A DNA stretch of 64,000 bases from an uncultured Pelagibacteraceae bacterium (GTDB taxonomy: Bacteria > Pseudomonadota > Alphaproteobacteria > Pelagibacterales > Pelagibacteraceae): assembly GCA_902577075.1 (NCBI GenBank), contig CACGXV010000004.1, forward strand, positions 1 through 64,000, in the 5' to 3' direction. Below, piece by piece: positions 49,479 to 51,733 of this stretch (position 1 is its first letter; each line of letters starts with the position of its first letter). The notes under the pieces are model-generated. The model did no database searches and was not told the origin of the DNA. It worked only from the letters and a program-made list of their open reading frames with translations. Both the position numbers and the translations under genes were made by a program.

Positions 49479-49754
49479 CTAGAGCAAAATACCCTCTGAT
49501 TTGAGTAATTTTCTCTTAGTATTTATCCCACCTTTGCCCGAATAGCCGCCCAATGAACCATCCGACCTGATTACTCTGTGACAAGGTATTTTTGGGGCAT
49601 ATGGGTTCTTTCCTATTGCATTTGCCACAGCTCTTACTGATTTTGGTTTATTTATAGCCTTTGCTACATCAGAGTAAGTCCGAATCTGCCCTTTTGGTAT
49701 TTTTTTAAGATATTTCCAAACTTTTAATTGAAATTTAGTGCCTTTAAGGATCAT
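49479..49754 (-). CDS. MGMT-family / O6-alkylguanine-DNA alkyltransferase-like protein
   Basis: 'FQLKVWKYLKKIPKGQIRTYSDVAKAINKPKSVRAVANAIGKNPYAPKIPCHRVIRSDGSLGGYSGG'-type motif with PCHRV. Start likely MILKGTKF; the N-terminal extension in the ORF track overlaps the RNA candidate. Confidence 0.88.
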   Translation of the reverse strand: MILKGTKFQLKVWKYLKKIPKGQIRTYSDVAKAINKPKSVRAVANAIGKNPYAPKIPCHRVIRSDGSLGGYSGKGGINTKRKLLKSEGILL

Positions 49755-49756
49755 AA

Positions 49757-49960
49757 TAAGAAAAACCCTGTTTCCTTGTACCTTTTCAGGCACAAAGAAC
49801 AGTAGTTTTTGGCACGTCGTTTTATGCGCTACCGCCATGCCTTCCACTCTACTATTTTAGCGCTACTCTGTAGAGCTTTCTGCCCTCTGGGCTTGAACCT
49901 CTCGGTTTTTCCCCAGCTGGTCAGTTAAGAGTTGCCTCTTAATTCATTTTAAACAATATC
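49757..49960 (-). ncRNA. Unidentified structured RNA candidate with terminator-like 3' hairpin
   Basis: GC-rich (57% over 49861-49920, counted) in a very AT-rich genome. Minus-strand hairpins: TTAAGAG-GCAA-CTCTTAA; CTGGG-[AACC-GAGA-GGTT]-CCCAG; CTAC-AGA-GTAG; nested AGTAG/GGCATG/GCG; TTGTGCCT-GAAA-AGGTACAA. Loops are GNRA and G-U wobbles form only on the minus strand. Confidence 0.65.
49761..49802 (-). terminator. Rho-independent terminator-like hairpin ending the RNA candidate
   Basis: Minus strand CTGTT-c-T-TTGTGCCT-GAAA-AGGTACAA-gga-AACAG-GG-TTTTT. Confidence 0.55.
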
Positions 49961-50049
49961 AGATAGAGTAGGTTGTATGTATCACTTTATTGTTGAATTT
50001 TGTGGGTTTTTAACAGGGCAGAATAGTGGGGATAACTTAATCTAAAGCT

Positions 50050-50779: not shown

Positions 50780-51733
50780 ATGAATGAGCTAACAACAGAC
50801 CTAAAATCGCTTCATGAGGCAACTCTAAATAATCTAAAAAACTCAAAAGCAAATAATACTTTAAGAGCATATAAATCAGACTTTAAAGATTTTAGAGCGT
50901 TTTGTGCTAAGCATGGATTAAGTTCTTTACCATCAGAACCCAAAATAGTTTCTTTATATATTACTCATCTATCTAAAAATTCAAAAATTAGCACATTAAG
51001 AAGAAGATTAGTTTCAATTAGCATGGTCCATAAACTAAAAGGCCACTATCTGGATACAAAACATCCAATCATTGTTGAGAACTTAATGGGAATAAGAAGA
51101 GTAAAAGGAAGCATTCAAAATGGTAAAAAACCTATATTAATCAATCATTTAAAATCTATTATTAATGTAATAGATGAAAAAAAATTTGATGATATTAAAA
51201 AATTTAGAGATAAGTCAATAATCTTAGTCGGCTTTGGAGGAGGATTTAGAAGAACTGAGCTAATCACAATTAATCATGAGGATTTAGAATTTGTGCCGGA
51301 AGGACTAAAAATCACAATAAGAAGGTCAAAAACCGATCAATTGGGTGAAGGGATGATTAAGGGACTACCCTACTTCACCAATGAAACCTATTGCCCAATT
51401 GTTAATCTTAAAAAATGGCTAGAAATTTCTAAAATTAAATCTGGACCAATTTTTAGAAGATTTACTAAAGGATCGTTATTAACTGACAAAAGATTAACAG
51501 ATCAATCGGTAGTTTTATTAATGAAAGAATACTTAAATTTAGCAGGTATAGATAATAAAAATTTTGCAGGCCACAGTTTAAGATCAGGTTTTGCAACTGT
51601 TGCTGCTGAATCTGGTGCAGATGAACGAAGTATTATGGCAATGACAGGTCATAAAACAACACAAATGGTAAGAAGATATATAAAAGAAGCAAATATATTT
51701 AAAAATAATGCACTGAACAATATTAAGATTTAA
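50780..51733 (+). CDS. Tyrosine recombinase / phage-type integrase
   Basis: Catalytic residues in 'GGGFRRTEL' (R), 'RRSKTDQ' (K), 'HSLRSGFATVAA' (H-R), 'TGHKT' (H), 'VRRYI' (Y); SAM-like N-terminal domain. Confidence 0.92.
   Translation: MNELTTDLKSLHEATLNNLKNSKANNTLRAYKSDFKDFRAFCAKHGLSSLPSEPKIVSLYITHLSKNSKISTLRRRLVSISMVHKLKGHYLDTKHPIIVENLMGIRRVKGSIQNGKKPILINHLKSIINVIDEKKFDDIKKFRDKSIILVGFGGGFRRTELITINHEDLEFVPEGLKITIRRSKTDQLGEGMIKGLPYFTNETYCPIVNLKKWLEISKIKSGPIFRRFTKGSLLTDKRLTDQSVVLLMKEYLNLAGIDNKNFAGHSLRSGFATVAAESGADERSIMAMTGHKTTQMVRRYIKEANIFKNNALNNIKI

Follow-up and report, generated by a model that had tools for sequence, protein, structure and literature searches.

A full-length IMES-2 RNA in a Pelagibacteraceae genome: a kissing-loop core within a predicted stand-alone gene

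What does a GC-rich block at positions 49757-49960 encode in the AT-rich genome of a Pelagibacteraceae bacterium? We addressed this question in a 64,000-nucleotide stretch of DNA, hereafter the window, for which a first-pass annotation made from the sequence alone had described the block as an unidentified, highly structured RNA transcribed from the minus strand. Its GC content is indeed 48%, compared with about 27-29% in the surrounding DNA. Folding of the minus strand yielded -71.3 kcal/mol (z = -6.1), with none of 200 shuffled sequences folding as well, whereas the plus strand reached a z score of only -2.2, in agreement with the proposed direction of transcription. A cmscan search of the window against Rfam 15 revealed a single match other than tRNAs, namely to IMES-2 (RF02035), with 161.6 bits (gathering score, 54.7) and an E value of 1.5e-42. 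Since this match spans the whole model (positions 1-141), the block belongs to a known family. The reading as a discrete, structured minus-strand RNA is thus supported, but the label "unidentified" was wrong, and a confident match to a known Rfam family is what the first-pass annotation had itself named as speaking against its reading. The annotation was right that the block is not a tmRNA, RNase P RNA, SRP RNA, 6S RNA, or group I/II intron.

Judged by this match, the block encodes IMES-2 at full length in a member of the Pelagibacteraceae (SAR11) and shares with RF02035 its sequence, the four model helices, the full length, and a marine SAR11 host. The family was already catalogued in Rfam, and no new RNA class is reported here. 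IMES-2 was reportedly presented in 2009 by Weinberg and colleagues as one of the RNAs "identified in marine environmental sequences." SAR11 bacteria count among the ocean's most abundant bacteria, and although IMES-2 carries a name, we found no function assigned to it. In the giant squid genome paper, it was regarded as likely marine contamination (PMC6962438). Structured RNAs located, like the present one, in GC-rich intergenic stretches of an AT-rich SAR11 genome were described in "Ca. Pelagibacter ubique" by Meyer et al. (2009), who presented the rpsB, rpsL, ffh, and methionine-biosynthesis motifs (PMC2704228). These four motifs are likely cis-regulatory and tied to downstream genes, whereas IMES-2 is tied to none; their paper makes no mention of the term IMES (PMC2704228). 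Relative to the structure line of the RF02035 model, our analysis adds a P3-P4 kissing loop, a P5 hairpin, a predicted promoter, and a tandem box (Table 1).

Table 1. Positions of IMES-2 elements, predicted control elements, and neighboring genes in the window
Feature	Position	Strand	Evidence
Tandem box: TTATCCCCA (50027-50035) plus degenerate second copy CTATTCTGC (50018-50026)	50018-50035	minus	unsupervised motif search
Predicted promoter: AAGTGATAC (49979-49987) plus TGATATT (49955-49961)	49955-49987	minus	conserved in relatives
IMES-2 RNA core, helices P1-P4	49809-49949	minus	RF02035 match, cmscan
P1: UUAAGAG-GCAA-CUCUUAA, GNRA tetraloop	49925-49942	minus	100% of cells paired; compensatory changes at 4/7 pairs
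P2: three stacked segments CUG-CC-(G)CUGGG, internal loop GAAA/CAAG, AACC-GAGA-GGUU	49880-49924	minus	compensatory changes at 13/15 pairs
P3: GCUCUAC(A)...(A)GUAGAGU, large loop with GCGCUA (49858-49863)	49846-49876	minus	compensatory changes at 8/8 pairs
P4: GGCAUG(G)CG...CG(A)CGUGCC, large loop with UAGCGC (49826-49831)	49811-49841	minus	compensatory changes at 5/9 pairs
P3-P4 kissing loop: GCGCUA (49858-49863) x UAGCGC (49826-49831)	49826-49863	minus	covariation
P5: hairpin of about 20 bp into a U-rich tail, probable intrinsic terminator	49761-49810	minus	folding z; conserved position
O6-methylguanine-DNA methyltransferase (MGMT), DNA-binding domain, 91 aa	49479-49754	minus	PF01035, E 5e-34
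Orphan tyrosine recombinase	50780-51733	plus	PF00589

Covariation, which had been suggested as a check, was analyzed in an alignment of 90 copies (82 distinct) obtained from an order-wide search, from the genus of G001, and from a DNA-pattern scan of named genomes. For P1-P4 together with the kissing helix, 93.9% of the cells are paired (81.9% in shuffles), and compensatory changes are found at 33 of the 45 pairs, versus 21.3 in shuffles; the covariation score of 0.398 compares with 0.169 for shuffled and at most 0.096 for slid pairings. This alignment was fitted to P1-P4, so the counts for these helices lean towards the structure; a MAFFT alignment of 37 sequences, which was not structure-fitted, gave 94.0% paired cells and compensatory changes at 22 pairs. 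The consensus P1-P4 secondary structure of RF02035 is kept with covariation, and the folding excess and covariation confirm a functional fold.

Comparison of this fold with the hairpins drawn from the single sequence revealed both agreement and differences. P1 and the CTGGG/CCCAG stem around AACC-GAGA-GGTT, now part of P2, had been placed correctly. The P1 loop is GNRA in every lineage (GCAA or GUAA), and the apical loop of P2 outside genus g2 is GAGA or, in L123, L131, and L148, GCAA. A proposed CTAC-AGA-GTAG hairpin (49863-49873) was discarded on covariation, with 66.7% of its cells paired versus 68.9% in shuffles; its CTAC pairs with the GTAG at 49849-49853 in P3. From a nested hairpin drawn at 49801-49853, the outer GGCATG/CGTGCC stem survives as the outer part of P4, whereas AGTAG/CTACT and the inner GCG/CGC fall outside the conserved structure, this GCGC being one half of the P3-P4 loop-loop helix. 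An inner mismatch of P4 is kept in all sequences of the alignment.

The kissing helix shows compensatory changes at 3 of its 6 pairs in separate lineages, with 95.6% of the cells paired. Its natural variants are GCAC x GUGC in genus g2 (L031 and L084-L087), GUACUA x UAGUAC in L095 and L137, and UCGCU x AGCGA in L123 and L148. Eleven cells are changed on both sides, compared with 1.4 in shuffles, and the covariation score is 0.117 versus 0.076; sliding the helix by +1 gave 14 such cells, yet only 27.8% of the cells were then paired. The model used to fit the alignment did not contain this helix, which is also missing from the RF02035 structure line; covariance models do not score pseudoknots. 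Collectively, the covariation indicates that the P3 and P4 loops form a kissing helix and fits an intramolecular or an intermolecular (P3-P4') contact equally well.

Very strong conservation marks the P4 loop, GGUAGCGC, as might be anticipated if IMES-2 acted in trans as an antisense small RNA and used this loop to pair with mRNAs. Such conservation, however, is largely explained by pairing between the P4 and P3 loops, which covary. In addition, an Hfq-dependent antisense sRNA would be expected in a host that has Hfq, and Hfq was found in none of 16 genomes, with the controls positive and the genome under study 89.5% complete. Although the RNA might instead act in a ProQ-like or chaperone-free manner, we consider an antisense role unlikely, and IMES-2 is probably not an Hfq-dependent antisense RNA.

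Downstream of the core, and outside the RF02035 model, lies P5. The first-pass annotation had captured the center of this hairpin (49776-49795), which in reality extends considerably further (Table 1). Its folding z score is -6.0 here; two relatives whose P5 sequences are unrelated gave -5.7 and -7.3. A hairpin of at least 12 bp that starts at most 8 nt from the core is found in 117 of 118 relatives, with a median of 18 pairs and -22 kcal/mol, and its sequence is wholly different between lineages. Because a U run follows most copies, P5 probably serves as an intrinsic terminator. The tail is weaker in g5, with no clean U run in L028, and a simple terminator scan did not report P5. The IMES-2 RNA is thus predicted to be about 190 nt long and to end near 49756-49762, just short of the MGMT start codon (ATG at 49754), in agreement with an earlier guess of a ~200-nt transcript ending near 49760.

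MGMT is the downstream neighbor of IMES-2 and not part of the RNA. The earlier statement that the block has no convincing ORF holds with one qualification: a minus-strand frame with a GTG start at 49847 does cross it, but this frame, the only long one over the block on that strand, is merely an upstream extension of MGMT. Gene calling from the first start (49479-49847, minus strand) lengthens MGMT from 91 aa to 122 aa and reads into IMES-2, and this extension is a likely source of misannotation.

Given this arrangement, IMES-2 could be a cis-acting leader of MGMT, i.e., a riboswitch or attenuator with P5 as a conditional terminator. In g1, the RNA lies directly upstream of MGMT and on the same strand in nearly all copies, and the end of P5 just precedes the start codon. 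A conserved same-strand association with one downstream gene was nevertheless not observed across the relatives. Three gene contexts were found, namely integrase/MGMT in g1, a gene that we named MnmA-like by inspection of its sequence and a membrane gene in g5/g6, and SNase/SRAP in g2. A different gene, on the opposite strand, lies downstream in the g5/g6 and g2 contexts, and therefore IMES-2 cannot be its leader there. Moreover, another gene sits between the RNA and MGMT in L145, and many g1 genomes have MGMT without the RNA. The P5 sequence changes wholesale while the core is kept, and thus there is no conserved alternative pairing between them. We therefore regard the leader explanation as extremely improbable. 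IMES-2 is independent of any one neighboring gene, and its three contexts, together with its clean presence or absence (see below), argue that it acts in trans and does not serve the adjacent MGMT as a leader.

Wherever a relative has enough upstream sequence, GTGAT (GCGATAC or GAGATA in g2) occurs 33-36 nt before the RNA, and a TGATAAT- or TGTTAT-like element usually comes after it. We infer that IMES-2 is transcribed from this conserved element, a predicted promoter that fits the sigma-70 consensus poorly and was not reported by a simple promoter scan. Further upstream, an unsupervised search of 60 non-redundant upstream regions from all three gene contexts identified the motif TTATCCAC.taaTTCACA, and the same promoter-proximal element and tandem box accompany IMES-2 in all three of these unrelated contexts. 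A scan of 1.6 million positions in G015 and G001 gave only 2 tandem-box sites of at least 17.5 bits; the listed site lies upstream of IMES-2 in G001, and the second, of at least 20 bits, would fit the corresponding region of G015 (21.0 bits in the motif search). In the genome samples scanned, the box is apparently confined to the IMES-2 upstream region.

The tandem box resembles two DnaA boxes placed one helical turn apart. Its identity as a pair of DnaA boxes is tentative: TTATMCACA was neither enriched relative to a reversed control nor clustered, and no such tandem box precedes dnaA in the dnaA upstream regions that we read. The idea of a replication origin, which this repeat had prompted, was rejected, as the g1 and g2 loci occupy no common place in sampled GC skew; the former lies near the cumulative maximum and the latter (303 kb) on the rising arm. 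In the complete genome G015, the place of the recombinase and IMES-2 is near the cumulative GC-skew maximum.

With respect to its distribution, IMES-2 was found by the order-wide search in 56 of 148 genomes, representing 4 of 10 genera; a search of genus g2 gave matches in 6 of 8 genomes. A class sample of 387 genomes yielded only 3 matches, all in Pelagibacteraceae, and all 80 listed named genome loci from the DNA-pattern scan belong to Pelagibacteraceae, Pelagibacterales, or Ca. Pelagibacter. Among the genomes searched, relatives are confined to Pelagibacteraceae, and the distribution is that of marine SAR11.

Within g1, 20 genomes gave no match, and 19 of them have the MGMT gene. In 13 of these 19, the reading frame immediately before MGMT is a small membrane or DUF2938-like one, in most cases preceded by the integrase, and the RNA, promoter, and box are all missing; in several g1 genomes the flanking genes are joined and the hairpin is gone too. 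Given this joint absence of box, promoter, RNA, and hairpin, the unit comes and goes whole. Divergent copies in the 20 genomes were sought with our own model and a laxer search, and the two best weak hits (15.5 and 14.2 bits) fall at a single homologous site, apparently within coding sequence, and so are not homologues. Occupied and empty genomes are interspersed on MGMT trees, so that repeated gain or loss of the unit is probable; IMES-2 is therefore dispensable. Because the MGMT-only trees have poor resolution and trees made jointly with the integrase are in conflict, we claim no direction of gain or loss.

In nearly all g1 copies, an orphan tyrosine recombinase lies upstream of IMES-2 and borders a glycosyltransferase-rich region. 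An RNA tied to this recombinase or to a mobile element would account for the integrase (PF00589) at the edge of that region and for the clean presence or absence of the RNA at the g1 site. However, other genera have the RNA without the integrase, and the integrase also occurs without the RNA. No copy was found in phage records, and a lone IMG/VR pattern hit on a viral contig was dismissed, as it falls inside a tail-sheath-like reading frame. Such a tie is, in our judgment, highly improbable.

The length of IMES-2 and its predicted promoter also invite comparison with 6S RNA (RF00013), likewise a stand-alone RNA of similar length. No 6S RNA was found in 148 Pelagibacterales genomes or, with laxer filters, in 16 genomes, the Caulobacter and E. 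coli controls being positive; these counts are matches to the 6S model, which a 6S RNA diverged past detection would escape. The genome under study has no match to this model at E <= 10, and the Rfam scan of the window has none. Hence, IMES-2 might be a lineage-specific replacement of 6S RNA that acts as a decoy for RNA polymerase. Yet 6S RNA is defined by a single long rod with a large central bubble, whereas IMES-2 comprises five consecutive hairpins and a kissing loop, and many near-complete SAR11 genomes are without both RNAs. For these two reasons, replacement is treated as a rival and not as our main reading, and we deem it very unlikely; by its predicted fold, IMES-2 is not a member of the 6S family.

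We propose that IMES-2 constitutes its own small gene, composed of a regulatory box, a promoter, an RNA of about 190 nt, and a terminator hairpin. Transcription would start at the conserved promoter and stop at P5, and the product would act in trans as a compact RNA. Our confidence in the identity, architecture, and stand-alone trans-acting nature of IMES-2, taken jointly and leaving any protein partner aside, is high. The stand-alone gene, the rigid tertiary core, the lack of a fixed neighbor, and the failure to find Hfq in 16 genomes are best read together as pointing to a trans-acting, protein-binding RNA. The kissing-loop core and the GNRA loops may present a fixed surface for protein binding, and the RNA could then serve as a regulatory decoy or RNP scaffold under the control of a factor that binds the tandem box, a proposal whose chances we place somewhat below even. 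It is quite unlikely that IMES-2 is a replication- or starvation-coupled regulator in which DnaA (or another factor) acts at the tandem TTATCCAC/TTCACA box and the core sequesters a global regulator; if true, SAR11 would rely on an RNA control system of its own instead of regulation based on 6S and Hfq.

The anatomy described here (i.e., a complete RNA, a tertiary contact for which compensatory variants occur in nature, an upstream box of its own, and natural pairs of genomes with and without the unit) opens this family to concrete tests, which concern the protein that binds the box, the protein that binds the RNA, and the differences between related genomes with and without IMES-2. One copy, L124:263-381, was set aside because it may be a chimera of single-cell amplification: it is truncated by a break in the P3 loop and fused to integrase coding sequence, an arrangement that could also reflect decay or rearrangement.
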